A stretch of DNA of 64,000 bases, from the NCBI RefSeq assembly GCF_900107455.1, contig NZ_FNQB01000003.1:868001-932000 (forward strand), in the 5' to 3' direction. The stretch comes from Asanoa ishikariensis. GTDB lineage: Bacteria; Actinomycetota; Actinomycetes; Mycobacteriales; Micromonosporaceae. The notes under the pieces are model-generated. The model ran no database searches, was not told the origin of the DNA, and saw only the letters and a program-made list of their open reading frames with translations. Position 1 is the stretch's first letter. Each line of letters opens with the position of its first letter. The position numbers and the translations under genes are program-made. Below, in pieces: positions 41,254 through 54,714 of the stretch.

Positions 41254-42015
41254 ATGACGTTCCGAGAGCTCCACGACGGCGCGTTGCCCCTGCTGCTGCC
41301 CAACGCGTGGGACGTCGCCTCGGCGCTCGCGTTCGTCGAGGCCGGCTTCCCCGCGGTCGGCACCACGAGCTTCGGTGTCGCCGCGGGCCTGGGCATACCG
41401 GACGGCCGGGCCGCGACCCGCGACGCCTCCCGTGCCCTCGCCCACGCCCTGTCGGCCCTGCCGGCCTTCGTCTCCGTCGACATCGAGGACGGCTACTCGG
41501 CCGACCCGGGTGAGGTCGCGGAGTACGTCGCGAGCCTGGGCGTCGCGGGTGTCAACGTGGAGGACAGCACCGACGGACGGCTGGTCGAACCGGCCGCGCA
41601 CGCCGAGAAGATCGCCGCGATCAAGGCCCGCAACCCCGACGTGTACGTCAACGCCCGCAGCGACACGTACTGGCTGGGCCAGGACGCCACCCTGTCGGCG
41701 ACGCTGGAGCGGGCCGCGGCCTACGTCTCGGCCGGTGCGGACGGCATCTTCGTTCCCGGCGCGACGAAGCCGGCCGAGTTGCGCGACCTGGCGGTCAACC
41801 TCCCGGTGCCGCTCAACGTGTTGGTGATCCCGGAGCTGTCCCTGCCGCATCTGGCCGACCTGGGCATCCGCCGGGTCAGCACGGGCTCACTCCCCTACCG
41901 GGCCGCCCTCGACGCGGCGGTCGCGGTGGCCATCGGCGTACGCGACGGGGTGGCGCCGCCGGCGGTGACCTCATATGCGGAGATACAGGACCGCCTGATC
42001 CGCTACGCCCGTTAG
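41254..42015 (+). CDS. isocitrate lyase/PEP mutase-family protein (intact paralogue)
   Basis: The 253-residue protein spans the full ICL/PEPM fold: LLLPNAWDVASALAFVEAGFPAVGTTSFGVA, VSVDIEDGYSADPGEVAEYV (metal-binding Asp/Glu), GVNVEDSTDG, VYVNARSDTYWLG and GADGIFVPGA. Members cleave C-C or C-P bonds of oxaloacetate-like acids; substrate is unknown and the PEPM lid residues cannot be judged here. A leaderless -10 box precedes the ATG. It is the intact relative of the frameshifted gene at 36951. A tandem-repeat array follows its stop codon. Confidence 0.9.
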   Translation: MTFRELHDGALPLLLPNAWDVASALAFVEAGFPAVGTTSFGVAAGLGIPDGRAATRDASRALAHALSALPAFVSVDIEDGYSADPGEVAEYVASLGVAGVNVEDSTDGRLVEPAAHAEKIAAIKARNPDVYVNARSDTYWLGQDATLSATLERAAAYVSAGADGIFVPGATKPAELRDLAVNLPVPLNVLVIPELSLPHLADLGIRRVSTGSLPYRAALDAAVAVAIGVRDGVAPPAVTSYAEIQDRLIRYAR

Positions 42016-42029
42016 TCCATGGCCAGGTC

Positions 42030-42133
42030 GTTCGTGGCCCGGCCGTTCGTGGCCCGGCCGTTCGTGGCCCGGCCGTTCGTGGCCTGGCCCGTTCGCGGCC
42101 TGGCCCGTTCGCGGCCCGGCCTGTTCGTGGCCC
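42030..42133. repeat. 15/16-bp tandem array between convergent genes
   Basis: Seven units based on GTTCGTGGCCCGGCC start at 42030, 42045, 42060, 42075, 42091, 42107 and 42123; the first four have period 15 and the rest 16. The array fills the gap between two convergent genes and is bordered on both sides by the similar sequence CCCGTTAGTCC-N-TGGC, which carries the stop codon on each side. Units are near-identical, so the array is probably unstable in length. Confidence 0.85.
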
Positions 42134-42134
42134 G

Positions 42135-45681: not shown

Positions 45682-46068
45682 ATGGAGGTACTCAGCAGCC
45701 GCATCCTGCTCCGACCGTCCGACGTCGAGCGCAGCCAGCGTTTCTACCGGGAGGTGCTCGGGCTCGCGGTCTACCGCGAGTTCGGGCCGCCTTCGCATCC
45801 GGGGCTGGTCTTCTTCCTCGGCCAGGGGTTGCTGGAGGTCTCCGGCGGCTCGCCCGGTGAGGCGCCGGGGCCGGTGCAGATCTGGCTCCAGGTGCGCGAC
45901 GTGCGGGCCGAGCATTCACGTCTGGTCGCGGCCGGGGTGACCGTCACCCGTTCGCCACGGACGGAGCCCTGGGGGCTGGTCGAGATGTCGATCGAAGATC
46001 CGGACGGCGTACGTATCGTCCTCGTCGAAGTGCCGCCTGAGCACCCGCTGCGCCGCGATCCTCGGTGA
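45682..46068 (+). CDS. VOC-family protein
   Basis: The 128-residue VOC domain includes SRILLRPSDVERSQRFYREVLGLAV, LVFFLGQGLLEVSGG and a C-terminal GLVEMSIEDPDGVRIVLVEVP, close to bleomycin-resistance and lactoylglutathione lyase relatives. Its last 15 codons lie in the first copy of a 64-bp tandem repeat, so the C-terminal tail PPEHPLRRDPR and the stop codon are repeat-encoded. GGAG is only 2 nt before the ATG. Confidence 0.85.
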   Translation: MEVLSSRILLRPSDVERSQRFYREVLGLAVYREFGPPSHPGLVFFLGQGLLEVSGGSPGEAPGPVQIWLQVRDVRAEHSRLVAAGVTVTRSPRTEPWGLVEMSIEDPDGVRIVLVEVPPEHPLRRDPR

Positions 46069-46215
46069 CCGCACGCCGGCGAGCCCTGTCGAAGTGCCGC
46101 CTGAGCACCCGCTACGCCGCGATCCTCGGTGACCGCACGCCAGCGAGCCCTGTCGAAGTGCCGCCTGAGCACCCGCTGCGCCGCGATCCTCGGTGACCGC
46201 ACGCCAGCGAGCGCT
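46024..46215. repeat. 64-bp tandem repeat, three copies
   Basis: Copies at 46024-46087, 46088-46151 and 46152-46215 are nearly identical, differing at a few bases, with the third diverging at its end. Copy 1 contains the 3' end and TGA stop of the VOC gene, so the array arose by tandem duplication across a gene end. The extra copies are non-coding. Confidence 0.9.
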
Positions 46216-46297
46216 GGGCGCGGACGGCGACCCGCGCGGGTGACCCGCCGCCGCGACCCTGCGCCGTGAACCGCCCTCCGCCGCGACCGTCGGTGGA

Positions 46298-47561: not shown

Positions 47562-47764
47562 TTCGTGCCCTCCCCTGCCCCCAGCCACCCTAACGGCCGC
47601 GGGCCAATGCCGAGCGGACAGCTGATCATGACTGATCCGACGACCGCAATAGGATGAATTGGACGATTCGGACGTTACGGGACGTTTTTGACGTGCTTTT
47701 GGTGCCAGATGTCCGCAATGATCTGAACATCCCCGTTACACCAAGGACACCTTCGGAGGAAGTT

Positions 47765-48388
47765 GTGCGCAAGATCGTCGGAATCGCTTCCGCTTCACTG
47801 ATCGCCCTCGGGTCCGTCCTCGTCGGTGCCGCATCGGCCTCGGCGGCGCCGCGCCCGCAGCGTCCGGCTCCGGCCGTCGTGCAGATCCAGTCGATCCAGT
47901 ACGACGCACCCGGCCGCGACACCCGCACCAACCAGAGCCTCAACGGCGAGTTCCTGACGCTGGTCAACCACGGCCGCCGCGCCGTGAACCTGAACGGCTA
48001 CGAGATCTCGGACCGCGTGAACCACGTCTACCGGTTCGGCAACGTGTGGATCGCGGGCGACGGCGGCACGGTCCGCCTGCACACCGGTAACGGCCGCAAC
48101 ACCAACCGCGCCGTCTTCTGGCGGAGTGGCAACCACATCTGGAACAACGACGGCGACACCGCCACCCTGACCGGCCCGCGCGGCCGGGCGATCGACAGCT
48201 GCTCGTACCGCGAGCGCGACTTCCGTGACGGCGATGGCCGTGACGGTCGCGATGGCCGTGACGGTCGTGATGGCCGTGACGGTCGTGACGGTCGCGATGG
48301 CCGTGACGGTCGCGATGGTGACGGTCGCGATGGCCGTGACGGCCGGGGCGACCGCGACCGCGACGGGGTGGGCCGGGTCGCCTGCTGA
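47765..48388 (+). CDS. secreted lamin-tail-domain protein with Gly-Arg-Asp repeats
   Basis: The 207-residue protein has a signal peptide (KIVGIASASLIALGSVLVGAASASAA), a lamin-tail (LTD) domain at about 38-150 (QIQSIQYDAPGRD, LNGEFLTLVNHGRRAVNLNGYEISD, DTATLTGPRGRAIDSCSY) and a C-terminal tail of tandem GRD triplets from about residue 155. LTD domains occur in secreted bacterial nucleases and surface proteins; no catalytic domain is present here. GGAGGA precedes the GTG start. A strong terminator follows. Confidence 0.82.
   Translation: MRKIVGIASASLIALGSVLVGAASASAAPRPQRPAPAVVQIQSIQYDAPGRDTRTNQSLNGEFLTLVNHGRRAVNLNGYEISDRVNHVYRFGNVWIAGDGGTVRLHTGNGRNTNRAVFWRSGNHIWNNDGDTATLTGPRGRAIDSCSYRERDFRDGDGRDGRDGRDGRDGRDGRDGRDGRDGRDGDGRDGRDGRGDRDRDGVGRVAC
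48228..48345 (+). repeat. GGCCGTGACGGTCGTGAT-type 18-bp coding repeats
   Basis: The array encodes (GRD)n, mainly as 18-bp units of two GRD triplets, with codon variation GAT/GAC and CGT/CGC. It is imperfect, so it is old enough to have drifted. It lies wholly within the lamin-tail gene. Confidence 0.85.
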
Positions 48389-49894: not shown

Positions 49895-50701
49895 GTGGCG
49901 GACCCGCCCGGACCCACGACGACGAGCCGGCTGGCGGTATGGGCGCTGGTCGCACTCGCCGCCGCCGACGTGCTGCGCACGGTGCTCGCGGTGGGCCATT
50001 ACGAGCAGCGGATCGACTCGGTGACGCACGGGAACCTCGACCCGATCACGCCCGCGCTGTACGCCTATCTGCTGCTGGACCACCTCTCTCCGACTGGTGT
50101 TGAACCGTCCACTGTGGGGCGTCAGGTGTGGTTCGTCGTCGCTCTGGTCGCCGGGGCCGCCTTCATCGCCTGGCTGTACCAGGCGTCCCGCACCGCGCAA
50201 CGACTCGCCGGCGCGTCGACCTGGGCGCCTGGGTGGGCGGTGGGCGGCTGGTTCATCCCGATCGCCAACCTGGCCATCCCCTACCTCGTGGTGCGAGACC
50301 TACACCGGGCCAGCGACATTCGGCCGCCCGACCAGGCGCGCGACCTGCACCAGGCCAGCGACATTCGGCCGCCCGACCAGATGCGCGACCCGCACGGGGG
50401 CGGCGACGCTCTGCCTCCTGAACAGGTGCTTCGGTCGCCTCGGCGTCAGCCGGAGCAGCGAATCCGGATCGGTCGATGGTGGACGCTCGTTCTCCTCACC
50501 GTTGCCTGCGTCGTGGTGCGGTGGCTCTACGACCTGACCACCGCGCGCGGTGGCGCATTGCACGGGACACAGGCCGACATGCGGTTCGTGACGTATCCCT
50601 TGTGGACTATCACCACCATCCTGTTCGTGAGAACGGCGAACCGCAGCGTCCGCCTCGTCAGGGAGGTGTGGCAGGGCCTGGGTTCTCTCTCGAAGGGCTG
50701 A
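49895..50701 (+). CDS. DUF4328 membrane protein with internal 15-residue duplication
   Basis: The 268-residue protein has about four predicted membrane helices (LAVWALVALAAADVLRTVLA, VWFVVALVAGAAFIAWLY, WWTLVLLTVACVVVRWLY, then YPLWTITTILFV) and the DUF4328 signature WAPGWAVGGWFIPIANLAIPYLVVRDLHRASD. After it a 15-residue unit (RDLHxASDIRPPDQ) is repeated in tandem with a 45-bp period. Function is unknown. AGGAGG lies 10 nt before GTG 49895; GTG 49886 directly abuts the ribosome binding site and is less likely. Confidence 0.78.
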   Translation: MADPPGPTTTSRLAVWALVALAAADVLRTVLAVGHYEQRIDSVTHGNLDPITPALYAYLLLDHLSPTGVEPSTVGRQVWFVVALVAGAAFIAWLYQASRTAQRLAGASTWAPGWAVGGWFIPIANLAIPYLVVRDLHRASDIRPPDQARDLHQASDIRPPDQMRDPHGGGDALPPEQVLRSPRRQPEQRIRIGRWWTLVLLTVACVVVRWLYDLTTARGGALHGTQADMRFVTYPLWTITTILFVRTANRSVRLVREVWQGLGSLSKG

Positions 50702-50780: not shown

Positions 50781-51632
50781 CTACGCCGCCACCCGTGCTT
50801 CGTGGGTGGCGCGGACCCGGTCCCACAGGGCCGTGCGTTCCTCGGCGGTCACGTCGTCGAGGCCTAGGTTGAACAGGCCGGCAAGCATGGCCCACCACTC
50901 TTCCCGGTTGGTGACGTCGCGCCGGGCGATGCCGGTTGCGCTGACCGTCGTCAGGGTCAGGCCGCGCAGGATGTCGGCTCCCGCGACGTGCCTGCGTTGG
51001 GCGGTCAGTGTGCGGACGAAGCCGGACTCCGGCGACGTGGTCAGCTCGACGTGCATCGCCGCGAAGTCGGCAGGCATCGCCTCGGCCGTGCGGAAGTCCA
51101 TGCCGACGAAGGCGCCGAACGGGGCGTGGGTCAGGCGCCAGCCGTCGGGCTCGACCGCCGAGTGGCCTAGGTGGAACGCGTAGGGGCCCTGCTCGAAGGA
51201 GCCCGGCGTCAACGGGACCGGTGCGTGCAGGCCGTCGCCTAGGCCCACGTCGGCGAACCAGACGCCGGCCGGGCACTCCGGTGTGGGTAGGCCGTGGACG
51301 GTCAGCACCAGGTGGTTGCCGTTGGCACCGACCGGCTCGGCGGCCGCGTGGCCCTGGACGCCGCCCACGTGCCAGCGCACGTCGTAGCCCAGCTCGGTGA
51401 GCAGCGCGGACATCGCGCCGTTGAGGTGGTAGCAGTAGCCGCCCCGGCCGAGACGGGCGATCCGGTCGGCTGACTCGAGCGGATCGACAGTGGTGGTGCG
51501 GCCGAGGTGGATGTCGAACGTGGTGTAGGCGATGCGCTCGGCGTGGGCACGGTGCAGCGTGGCGAGGGCGGCGGCGCTCGGCGGCTCGGCGCGCAGGCCG
51601 AGCCGACGGAGGTAGGTGGACACGTCGATCAT
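50781..51632 (-). CDS. arylamine N-acetyltransferase
   Basis: The 283-residue enzyme has the cysteine-protease-like NAT triad: Cys67 in RGGYCYHLN, His107 in GNHLVLTV and Asp128 in ADVGLGD. The usual RGGxCxE motif has His instead of Glu two residues after the catalytic Cys. NATs move acetyl groups from acetyl-CoA to arylamines or hydrazines. A TAGCGT box 6 nt before ATG 51632 suggests a leaderless mRNA. It is divergent from the repeat-containing MFS gene. Confidence 0.9.
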   Translation of the reverse strand: MIDVSTYLRRLGLRAEPPSAAALATLHRAHAERIAYTTFDIHLGRTTTVDPLESADRIARLGRGGYCYHLNGAMSALLTELGYDVRWHVGGVQGHAAAEPVGANGNHLVLTVHGLPTPECPAGVWFADVGLGDGLHAPVPLTPGSFEQGPYAFHLGHSAVEPDGWRLTHAPFGAFVGMDFRTAEAMPADFAAMHVELTTSPESGFVRTLTAQRRHVAGADILRGLTLTTVSATGIARRDVTNREEWWAMLAGLFNLGLDDVTAEERTALWDRVRATHEARVAA

Positions 51633-51638
51633 GCGGTG

Positions 51639-51644
51639 ACGCTA
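51639..51644 (-). promoter_or_regulatory. leaderless -10 box of the NAT gene (TAGCGT)
   Basis: Minus-strand TAGCGT, then 6 nt, then ATG 51632. Confidence 0.45.
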
Positions 51645-51713
51645 ACGCGAGGGTGCGACGTTTTCCGTGGCGCGCCCACGCATCCCGGGCGGTGCGCCGG
51701 GTATGCGGCATTG

Positions 51714-53633
51714 GTGGAAGGCCGGCTGCCGGGGGTACGCGCGGGGGCCGGGCCGAGGCGTTTGATCGCCCGACTGTCGGAAGCTCTGGGCGGGCCGGTC
51801 CGGGCCCGCGTGATCGTCCTGTTGGCGTTCGTGCTGGCGCTGAACTCCGCCGACAGCGGGACGATCGGAGCGGTCGGCGCGCCGTTGGAGGCCGACCTCG
51901 GCATCTCGCACGCGCAGCTCGGCCTCTTCGCGACCGTCTCGTCCGGGGTCGGCGCTGTCGCCGCCCCGATAGCCGGCGTGCTCGCCGACCGGACCCTCCG
52001 GGTCCGGCTGCTCGCGATCACGATCGCCGTCTGGGGCGCCTCGATGGTGGTCGGCGGGCTCGCGCCGGACTACCTCTGGCTGCTGCTGTCCCGGATCACC
52101 CTCGGCGCCGCGGTGGCCGCCTCCGGCCCGATCGTCGCTTCGCTGATCGGCGACCTCTTTCCCGCCGGCGAACGGGCGAAGATCTACGGCTGGGTACTCA
52201 CCGGTGAGCTGGTCGGCGCCGGCCTCGCCCTACTGGTCGGCGGCGACGTCGCTGCCTGGCTCTCGTGGCGGGCGCCCTTCCTCGGGCTTGCCGTGCTCAG
52301 CCTCGGGCTGGCTGCCGCGCTCTGGCGGCTGATGCCCGAGCCCAGCCGCACCGGCGCCAGCCGCTTACCACCCGCCGCAGGCCTGCACCGGCGACGGGAC
52401 CAAGACCGCAGCCAGGATCCGATCCACGGCCGGGACCACGGCCGGGACCACGGCCCGGACCACGGCCCGGACCACGGCCCGGACCAGAGCCACAGCCGGG
52501 ACGACGGCCAGCACCAGGTCCGCAGTCGGGACCTGGACCAGGGTCAGGATCCGGACTACGGCCAAGGCCAGGAAATGGGCCACGGCCGAAAACAGGCGGC
52601 GGACCACGCCCAGGAACAGGCCGCAGACCACGCCCAGGAACAGGCGCTGAGCCCCAGCCGGAAGCAGGCGCCGGACCGCGGTCAGGAACAGGCCGCAGAC
52701 CACGCCCGGGAACAGGCGCTGAGCCCCAGCCGGAAGCAGGCGCCGGACCGCGGTCAGGAACAGGCCGCAGACCACGCCCGGGAACAGGCGCTGGGCCACG
52801 GCCGGGAACAGGCGCTGGGCCACGGCCGGGAACAGGCGGCGGACCCCGATCACGGCCAGGTGTTGGACCGTGGCCGGGAGGCTGTTCTTGACGAGGGGGT
52901 TCCGCCCGATCCGGGTCGGGTGCTGCGTGACGACCCGAACGCCATGAGCTTCTGGCAGGCCGCGCGGTACGTGCTCGGTATTCGTACTGTCCGGACGCTG
53001 ATCGTTGCCACCGCGATCGGGTACTTCTTCTTCGCCGGGCTGCGCACCTTCGCATTGATCTTCGCCCTCGATCGGTACGGGCTGTCGCAGGGTCTGGTCA
53101 GCCTGGTCGTCATTCCGATCGGGCTGGGGGCGGTGGCCGGCACCCTGTTCGGCGGCCGGCTGACCGACCGGGCATTACGCCGACGCCACACGCGGGCGCG
53201 GGTCACGGTGCCGGCGGTCGCTTACTCGGCGGCCGCACTGTTCTTCCTGCCCGGCCTGCTCGTCGCCGAGATCTGGTTGTCGATCGGCTTCTTCACCCTC
53301 GGCGCCTGCTGCCTCGCCGCCGCCAATCCGCCGCTCGGCGCCGCCCGGCTCGACATCGTGCCCGCCGCGCTGTGGGGGCGCGCGGAGAGCGTGCGCACCG
53401 TGCTCCAGCTCGCCGCCGAAGCGGCCGGCCCCGTCGCCTTCGGATTCGTCGCCGACGAGCTCGGTGGCCCGGCCGGGCGCGGTGGCGGGCTGCGCTCCGC
53501 GTTCCTCATCATGCTCGTGCCACTGCTGCTCAACGGCCTGCTCCTGCTTCGGGCCCGGCGCACCTACCGCACCGACGTGGCCACCGCCGCCGCGGCCCGC
53601 CCGGCCGACACCCAGCTCACGAAGCCGCGTTGA
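51714..53633 (+). CDS. MFS transporter with 200-residue octapeptide-repeat insertion
   Basis: The 639-residue protein contains a complete 12-helix MFS fold split by a long insertion. Helices 1-6 occupy about residues 25-210 (AFVLALNSADSGTIGAVGAP, motif A-like VLADRTLRVRLL) and helices 7-12 lie at about 410-625 (VATAIGYFFFAGLRTF). Between them residues ~212-409 form a His/Asp/Gln/Arg-rich low-complexity domain with HGPD and octapeptide repeats in the cytosolic central loop. Family members normally have 400-450 residues. The start is uncertain: GTG 51714 or TTG 51711 lack a ribosome binding site. Substrate unknown. Confidence 0.82.
   Translation: MEGRLPGVRAGAGPRRLIARLSEALGGPVRARVIVLLAFVLALNSADSGTIGAVGAPLEADLGISHAQLGLFATVSSGVGAVAAPIAGVLADRTLRVRLLAITIAVWGASMVVGGLAPDYLWLLLSRITLGAAVAASGPIVASLIGDLFPAGERAKIYGWVLTGELVGAGLALLVGGDVAAWLSWRAPFLGLAVLSLGLAAALWRLMPEPSRTGASRLPPAAGLHRRRDQDRSQDPIHGRDHGRDHGPDHGPDHGPDQSHSRDDGQHQVRSRDLDQGQDPDYGQGQEMGHGRKQAADHAQEQAADHAQEQALSPSRKQAPDRGQEQAADHAREQALSPSRKQAPDRGQEQAADHAREQALGHGREQALGHGREQAADPDHGQVLDRGREAVLDEGVPPDPGRVLRDDPNAMSFWQAARYVLGIRTVRTLIVATAIGYFFFAGLRTFALIFALDRYGLSQGLVSLVVIPIGLGAVAGTLFGGRLTDRALRRRHTRARVTVPAVAYSAAALFFLPGLLVAEIWLSIGFFTLGACCLAAANPPLGAARLDIVPAALWGRAESVRTVLQLAAEAAGPVAFGFVADELGGPAGRGGGLRSAFLIMLVPLLLNGLLLLRARRTYRTDVATAAAARPADTQLTKPR
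52573..52860 (+). repeat. 24-bp/72-bp nested coding repeats
   Basis: The region is built of 24-bp units encoding octapeptides such as AADHAQEQ, ALSPSRKQ, APDRGQEQ and ALGHGREQ. Two successive 72-bp blocks (three octapeptides, period 72 from about 52641) are almost identical at the DNA level, which points to recent tandem duplication. A separate run of 12-bp HGPD/HGRD units lies just upstream (about 52426-52485). Confidence 0.88.
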
Positions 53634-54714
53634 CCGCGGAGCCCAGCCGCTCCAGAGCCTCCCCGAAGACGTCCGGCGGCAGGTGTCCGAACCCCAGCCG
53701 GAACACCCGGTCGGACTCGAAGAACCAGGACCCTCGCCCCACCCGCACATCGCGCGCGGCAAGCGCGGCGTAGAACCGCGAGACCGACACCTCCGGCCGC
53801 AACCGCAGGCAGCAGAGCGCGCCGGCATCCGGGCGAAGCAGCTCCAGCGAAGGCACCTCCGACACCCAGGACGTCAGGGTGGCCAGGGCAAAGCCCAACG
53901 CCTCCCGCCGCGAACCCAGCACCGAATCCCGCTGCCGCAGCACCTCCAACGCCAGCAGCTCGTCGACGCCCGACCCGGTGATCAGCGTCGTGAACTTGGC
54001 TCGGCGCAGCCGCTCGTACAACGCGGGCGCGGTCGCGGTCAGCCAGCCGACCCGCAGGCCTGGGGCGCCATAGGCCTTCGACAGCGACGAGCACGTCACC
54101 ACCGACGGGCCGAGCGACGCGGCCGACGGTGCCGGCACACCGTCGTACGCGCCGTCCCGGTAGGTCTCGTCCACCAGCACCACCGCGTCCGGTGCCACCG
54201 CCGCCACCCCGGCCACCAGGTCGGCCAGGTCGCGGGCGGCAAGACGTACGCCGGACGGGTTCTGGGGTGAGGCGACCGAGACCAGCCGGGTCGTGGGGCG
54301 GACGGCCGCCACAACAGCGGGCACGTCGAGCCGGTAGCCCGCGTCGAAGGACAGCGGCACCGTCGAGACCGAGGCGCGCAGTGAGTTCAGCACCGACACC
54401 GCCGGCGGGAAGCACGGCGTCGCCACCACCGCGTGGTCGCCGGCCTCGCAGGTGACCATGGCGAGCAGGAACATCCCCGCGACACCGCCGGGCGTCAGCA
54501 GCACCTCGTCGGCGTCGACACCAAGATCCTTGGCCACCACGGTACGCAGCGCGGGCGAACCGGGCGTCGTCCCGTACCCGATGGCCAGGTCGTCGAGCAG
54601 CCCCGGAGTGAGCAGCGAACCGAGGCGCAGCGGCGGGCTCGTGCTCTCCCCCAGGTCGTACCGGCACGGCTCGTCGACGAGGTCGGACATCGGCGTGGGC
54701 GGAAAGCGTTCCAT
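53617..54714 (-). CDS. PLP-dependent aminotransferase (class I/II)
   Basis: The 365-residue enzyme has the fold-type I pattern: DDLAIGYGTTPGSPALRTVVA, LTPGGVAGMFLLAM, ASPQNPSGVRLAARDLADLV, VVLVDETYRDGAYDG and the PLP lysine in VTCSSLSKAYGAPGLRVGW, then an arginine in VFRLGFGHLP for the carboxylate. Substrate unknown. ATG 54714 follows a weak GGTGG. It overlaps the repeat MFS gene end by 17 bp and is divergent from the oxalate/formate-type carrier, whose substrates might be related acids. Confidence 0.88.
   Translation of the reverse strand: MERFPPTPMSDLVDEPCRYDLGESTSPPLRLGSLLTPGLLDDLAIGYGTTPGSPALRTVVAKDLGVDADEVLLTPGGVAGMFLLAMVTCEAGDHAVVATPCFPPAVSVLNSLRASVSTVPLSFDAGYRLDVPAVVAAVRPTTRLVSVASPQNPSGVRLAARDLADLVAGVAAVAPDAVVLVDETYRDGAYDGVPAPSAASLGPSVVTCSSLSKAYGAPGLRVGWLTATAPALYERLRRAKFTTLITGSGVDELLALEVLRQRDSVLGSRREALGFALATLTSWVSEVPSLELLRPDAGALCCLRLRPEVSVSRFYAALAARDVRVGRGSWFFESDRVFRLGFGHLPPDVFGEALERLGSAVNAAS

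Follow-up and report, generated by a model that had tools for sequence, protein, structure and literature searches.

Among transporters of known structure, the closest in sequence to the carrier described here is a Spinster protein (6e8j, E 7.3e-30 with a family profile), and the named Spns systems available for comparison are HnSpns (6e8j/6e9c) and human SPNS1 and SPNS2. For HnSpns, the published account assigns roles to the TM1 aspartate D41, the TM4 arginine R122, and a charge relay formed by D87, R91, and D142, and it identifies R42 as the substrate arginine and E129 as the proton-switch glutamate (PMC9440201). Spns proteins also have a periplasmic salt bridge that links an aspartate of TM2 to an arginine of TM7, D60-R289 in HnSpns numbering (PMC9440201 and PMC13192786). 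Arg233 of the HnSpns hinge is tethered to motif A and loses this tether in the occluded state (PMC9440201). The portions of the literature on these structures that were available make no mention of hinge repeats for HnSpns or other Spns proteins.

The window analyzed here is a 64,000-nucleotide stretch of Asanoa ishikariensis DNA, lying on a 1.94-Mb contig of an assembly of 9.09 Mb in 11 contigs. It encodes a 12-helix MFS protein of Asanoa (Micromonosporaceae), the features of which are collected in Table 1. No stop interrupts the frame between a point upstream of 51714 and the stop codon at 53633; the putative start is a GTG at 51714, and an in-frame TTG is also present at 51711. The product matches Pfam MFS_1 (PF07690) at E 2.4e-38, with 132.4 bits against a curated cut-off of 33.4; none of the 25 NCBIfam models that match it at E ≤ 0.001 reaches its own cut-off. 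An AlphaFold model with a mean pLDDT of 80.4, made with a 40-sequence alignment as input, displays the two-bundle helical fold of the MFS, and its top Foldseek matches are MFS structures, namely a mycobacterial MFS carrier, Spinster proteins, and other MFS carriers. The alignment drew on 39 of 62 homologue loci; 42 were tried, of which L025, L032, and L047 were left out because of a stop near the end of their stretch.

Table 1. Features of the transporter locus, in coordinates of the window.
Feature	Coordinates	Strand	Evidence
MFS transporter gene	51714..53633	+	open frame; Pfam MFS_1; AF2 core mostly pLDDT >90
N-terminal six-helix half, residues 1-212, ending in conserved PEP-x-R segment	51714..52349	+	
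TM6-TM7 hinge, 203 residues, from after the PEP motif to W414	52344..52952	+	
12-bp tandem array, five units: IHGR, DHGR, DHGP, DHGP, DHGP	52422..52481	+	
Degenerate 12-bp-based stretch	52482..52577	+	listed units
Eleven 24-bp units, octapeptides such as DHAREQAL, 72-bp higher-order period	52578..52841	+	
Region with exact 85-bp duplication, 52637-52721 = 52709-52793	52637..52793	+	
Conserved segment before and into TM7, DEGVPPDPGRVLRDDPNAMSFWQAARYVLG, 3' of the insertion	52890..52979	+	alignments; pLDDT
C-terminal half, residues 405-639	52926..53630	+	
Arylamine N-acetyltransferase gene, divergent neighbor of the MFS gene	50781..51632	-	Pfam Acetyltransf_2

The overall fold is like that of the Spinster protein SPNS2 (8ex5, TM-score 0.86 by target length). 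Residues corresponding to HnSpns D41, R122, D87, R91, and D142 are present as D47, R127, D92, R96, and D147, and all five are invariant in the 40 sequences. However, other Spns features are replaced in the profile alignment: R42 of TM1 and E129 of TM4 correspond to S48 and V134, and D60 and R289 correspond to H66 and D453, the R289/D453 pairing resting on a weak stretch of the alignment. Membership of the Spns family is not assigned, because R42, E129, and the D60-R289 pair are lacking by this alignment. The hinge arginine R233 of HnSpns aligns with R212, which precedes the repeats, and E209, P210, and R212 are invariant in the 40-sequence alignment.

An earlier sequence-only reading described this gene as an MFS transporter with a repeat-bearing central loop, split by an octapeptide-repeat domain of about 200 residues. 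Both the transporter and the repeats in its loop are real, as evidenced by the Pfam match and by TRF scores above those of all 200 codon shuffles. The stated length fits the hinge as a whole, but the octapeptide part comprises just 11 units, 8 of them distinct, and totals 88 residues. Ahead of it come five 12-bp units and then a degenerate stretch. Repeat-like codons (52422-52865) number 148 out of the 203 residues of the hinge. TRF reports one array at 52424-52486 (period 12, 5.2 copies, score 112, 98% matches) and another at 52585-52845, which scores 389 as 3.6 copies of period 72 and is also read as 11.1 copies of period 24. Shuffling the hinge codons 200 times gives scores of at most 82, compared with the observed best of 389; 23 of the shuffles reach a score of 50 and none a score of 100.

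The 72-bp period and the exact duplication listed in Table 1 bear out the suggestion that 72-bp blocks were recently duplicated. The duplication is the longest exact one found, and its exactness indicates that part of the expansion is recent. As in a coding minisatellite, the copies lie head to tail with constant periods of 12, 24, and 72, and the reading frame is kept because all three periods are multiples of 3. Bacterial in-frame coding minisatellites/VNTRs, the kind to which we take the hinge array to belong, share its constant multiple-of-3 period, its recent exact duplication, and its predicted disordered product; the array differs from them in sitting inside the hinge of a membrane carrier.

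Structure prediction agrees with the proposal that the loop is a disordered linker. AlphaFold assigns pLDDT values below 50 to residues 246-325, 337-348, 361-367, and 369-378, and within residues 326-378 such values are found at 29 of 53 positions. Short helices of low confidence are predicted at 323-335 and 349-361, between and around the hinge parts with pLDDT below 50. Confidence returns from about residue 391, ahead of TM7, with pLDDT values of 95, 94, and 96 at residues 391-400, 401-410, and 411-420. Conserved hinge segments flank the insertion on both sides, namely the PEP-x-R tether that follows TM6 and the pre-TM7 stretch; for this reason the transporter should work with or without the repeats, and near-neutral tolerance of them would be expected. 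This is also the placement at which disturbance of gating should be least.

Loops of this kind had been expected to span 20 to 60 residues. The measured family range is wider (10-107 residues, median 57, n=60), and no homologue exceeds 107 residues, compared with 203 here. Of the 62 loci examined, 59 were measured; L029 and L082 were left out because one half has no match and L060 because its halves lie in different frames, and G002, another Asanoa with a hinge of 107 residues, was added to give n=60. Loops of ordinary short length throughout the orthologues had been put forward as grounds for doubting the repeat. All 60 homologue hinges are indeed no longer than 107 residues, which marks the repeat as lineage-specific, not as unreal. 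A linker of variable length had also been proposed, and lengths do differ between species across the 60 homologues. The difference in copy number is one between species, as the genome collections hold one genome per species.

The closest species, Asanoa hainanensis, provides the most direct comparison. Its protein is 96% identical in the N half and 95% identical in the C half, and its hinge has 72 residues, with no array at a TRF score of at least 30. Direct alignment of the two proteins places the extra residues as gaps within the hinge, with both flanks conserved. The shorter hinge, the absence of a detectable array, and this alignment together indicate that the expansion is lineage-specific. 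The five intact Asanoa proteins have hinges of 51, 72, 93, 107, and 203 aa, and the four other than the present one (51-107 aa) show no array at a TRF score of 30.

Asanoa orthologues beside the N-acetyltransferase gene resemble the present locus in their halves and in this divergent neighbor. In each of the five other Asanoa genomes the N-acetyltransferase gene and the MFS gene are neighbors, although in G004 the latter is a remnant. Transporter matches are found in all five, four of them intact frames, and in G004 only C-terminal MFS matches are present, at about 9912-10407 of L097 (G004:C1:5928000-5947999). At E ≤ 1e-40 the N half is unmatched both beside this remnant and elsewhere in the G004 genome, so the carrier seems dispensable there. 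Across 61 genomes, the source genome included, 10 have a transporter match at E ≤ 1e-40.

The best explanation, to which we assign a probability of roughly 0.83, is near-neutral, in-frame growth of a minisatellite in the tolerant, predicted-disordered hinge of an ordinary Spinster-like 12-helix MFS carrier. A GC-rich minisatellite would have grown in-frame inside a TM6-TM7 hinge that was already variable and is predicted to be disordered. Growth probably proceeded in 12-, 24-, and 72-bp steps, by replication slippage or by unequal recombination, and the repeats may act as a passive, longer tether between the transporter halves. The expansion looks like common lineage-specific repeat growth and not like a new functional domain.

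Codon comparisons bear on whether selection acts on the repeat. Between the transmembrane halves of this protein and those of A. hainanensis, there are, with the N and C halves added together, 22 differences at the first codon position, 9 at the second, and 110 at the third. Pairwise comparison of the 8 distinct repeat units gives 42, 74, and 45 differences at the same positions, and among 121 codon differences 24 are synonymous and 97 nonsynonymous; these are raw counts that are not independent, as the units share descent. Amino-acid constraint would give an excess at third positions; the repeat units have no such excess, and constraint on them therefore shows no sign.

This absence of a sign of constraint weighs against the leading alternative, in which hinge length and charge tune the transporter. 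A long, acidic, His-containing linker would shift the gating rate or the pH response, with repeat number as the knob. The idea draws on HnSpns, where the L6-7 hinge is tethered and is released with proton-dependent gating (PMC9440201), and it is consistent with the differing hinge lengths in Asanoa and with the net charge of -10 for residues 226-392, His not counted. The insertion nevertheless avoids the conserved hinge segments, and the carrier seems dispensable in G004; we regard this alternative as unlikely. Somewhat more doubtful still is its most specific form, in which slippage makes in-frame steps in repeat number that alter the length and charge of a tether controlling alternating access, yielding gating or pH variants within Asanoa.

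The composition of the loop had also suggested a metal-binding domain, but the analysis gave this no positive support. A His/Asp domain for metal sensing or buffering, comparable to His-rich loops found in certain metal transporters, would account for the 16 His and 27 Asp among the 203 hinge residues, and prokaryotic His-rich low-complexity regions have been linked with metal-binding proteins (PMC6821194). However, the His fraction of the array is 0.101, compared with 0.107 expected from positional base composition. Histidine enrichment beyond base composition, as a sign of metal binding, was rejected on this comparison, and the predominance of nonsynonymous differences among the units speaks against such a domain as well. 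Second codon positions of the array are 47% A; Gln, Ala, and Ser lie above the positional-composition expectation, and Glu, Arg, and Pro lie below it. No two His residues are adjacent anywhere in the hinge, each octapeptide unit carries one His or none, no metal carrier is named among the solved relatives listed, and A. hainanensis lacks the array. Taken with these observations, a metal-responsive loop is very improbable.

Hinge His content may nevertheless be considered at the level of the genus. It ranges from 3.9 to 10.3% in the five intact Asanoa proteins, three of which have 6.5-10.3%, whereas the median of 56 hinges from outside the genus is 1.9%. Among the Asanoa hinges only that of G002 exceeds its own compositional expectation (0.103 versus 0.072). 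This is a weak clade-level trend that could be a selected property, and it tells against the near-neutral explanation, as does the excess of Gln, Ala, and Ser in the array.

That the array is partly an artefact of assembly or sequencing has a similarly slight chance of being correct. Assemblies are error-prone at tandem repeats, but the error described is collapse, which would shorten the array and not lengthen it (PMC6868369). The length of the contig also argues against an artefact, as do the modest size of the longest exact duplicate, only 85 bp, the differences between units, and the intact frame. An exact repeat of this size is shorter than common read lengths.

The least credible alternative, that the repeat DNA itself is functional, whether as structured RNA, as a regulatory repeat, or as a gene read in a different frame, is highly improbable: of the five other frames, three are open across the array, as is usual at such GC content, and 51400-53900 has no Rfam match, no promoter-like site, and two terminator-like sites that both fall outside the array. 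A structured RNA was rejected on the Rfam result, and an alternative-frame gene on the frame survey and the search for promoter- and terminator-like sites across the same interval. A dispersed repeat was rejected because the genome has no close second copy of the array, the next match having an E of 0.0036 with 40 of 188 candidates scored.

Tandem arrays are found throughout the sampled genomes, at rates that are rough because the samples are evenly spaced or orthologous stretches. For arrays with a TRF score of at least 100, the source genome has 5.0 per 100 kb (300 kb sampled, as fifteen 20-kb stretches); the corresponding rates are 3.6 and 6.3 in the Asanoa genomes G002 (280 kb) and G004 (160 kb), and 6.5 and 19 in G015 and G006 (200 kb each). 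One such array is present in 20 kb of A. hainanensis (G003) and one in 40 kb of G005 and G001. Periods that are multiples of 3 predominate among arrays with a score of at least 50, with 55 of 66 in the source genome, 33 of 48 in G002, 26 of 33 in G004, 40 of 49 in G015, and 86 of 112 in G006. The window contains six TRF rows with a score of at least 100 in 64 kb, two of them in the MFS hinge, and is thus somewhat richer than the genome samples. The hinge array is one case of a genome-wide habit of in-frame arrays.

Several other arrays in the window and in related genomes are worth recording. The repeats of two nearby genes are also longer than in A. hainanensis. At 48231-48345, a 9-bp-based array codes for GRD repeats in the C-terminal tail of a protein that is putatively secreted (47654-48388), with fewer copies in A. 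hainanensis. A DUF4328 protein contains an in-frame 45-bp array of 2.6 copies at 50292-50407; the A. hainanensis copy is without this repeat, and its matches lie in two different frames. Three 64-bp copies at 46024-46216 (96% matches), with a period not divisible by three, overlap the 3' end of an open frame ending at 46068, and the corresponding A. hainanensis interval is about 140 bp shorter, as judged from blastn gaps. Just 3' of the open frame 41254-42015 lies a 15-bp array of 7.5 copies (42020-42134). Near the counterpart of this place, A. hainanensis has a 28-bp array of its own (L093 3335-3460), indicating that this species is not simply repeat-poor. The same-family genome G006 is dense in tandem arrays, with 38 of score at least 100 in 200 kb (L143-L152).

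This locus is a clean natural case of how much additional disordered sequence may be carried in an MFS hinge with the conserved tether and the pre-TM7 stretch intact. It also illustrates the growth of coding minisatellites in actinobacterial genomes rich in GC. Should the length of the hinge prove to tune transport, natural variants of this kind would allow the role of the hinge in MFS carriers to be tested.
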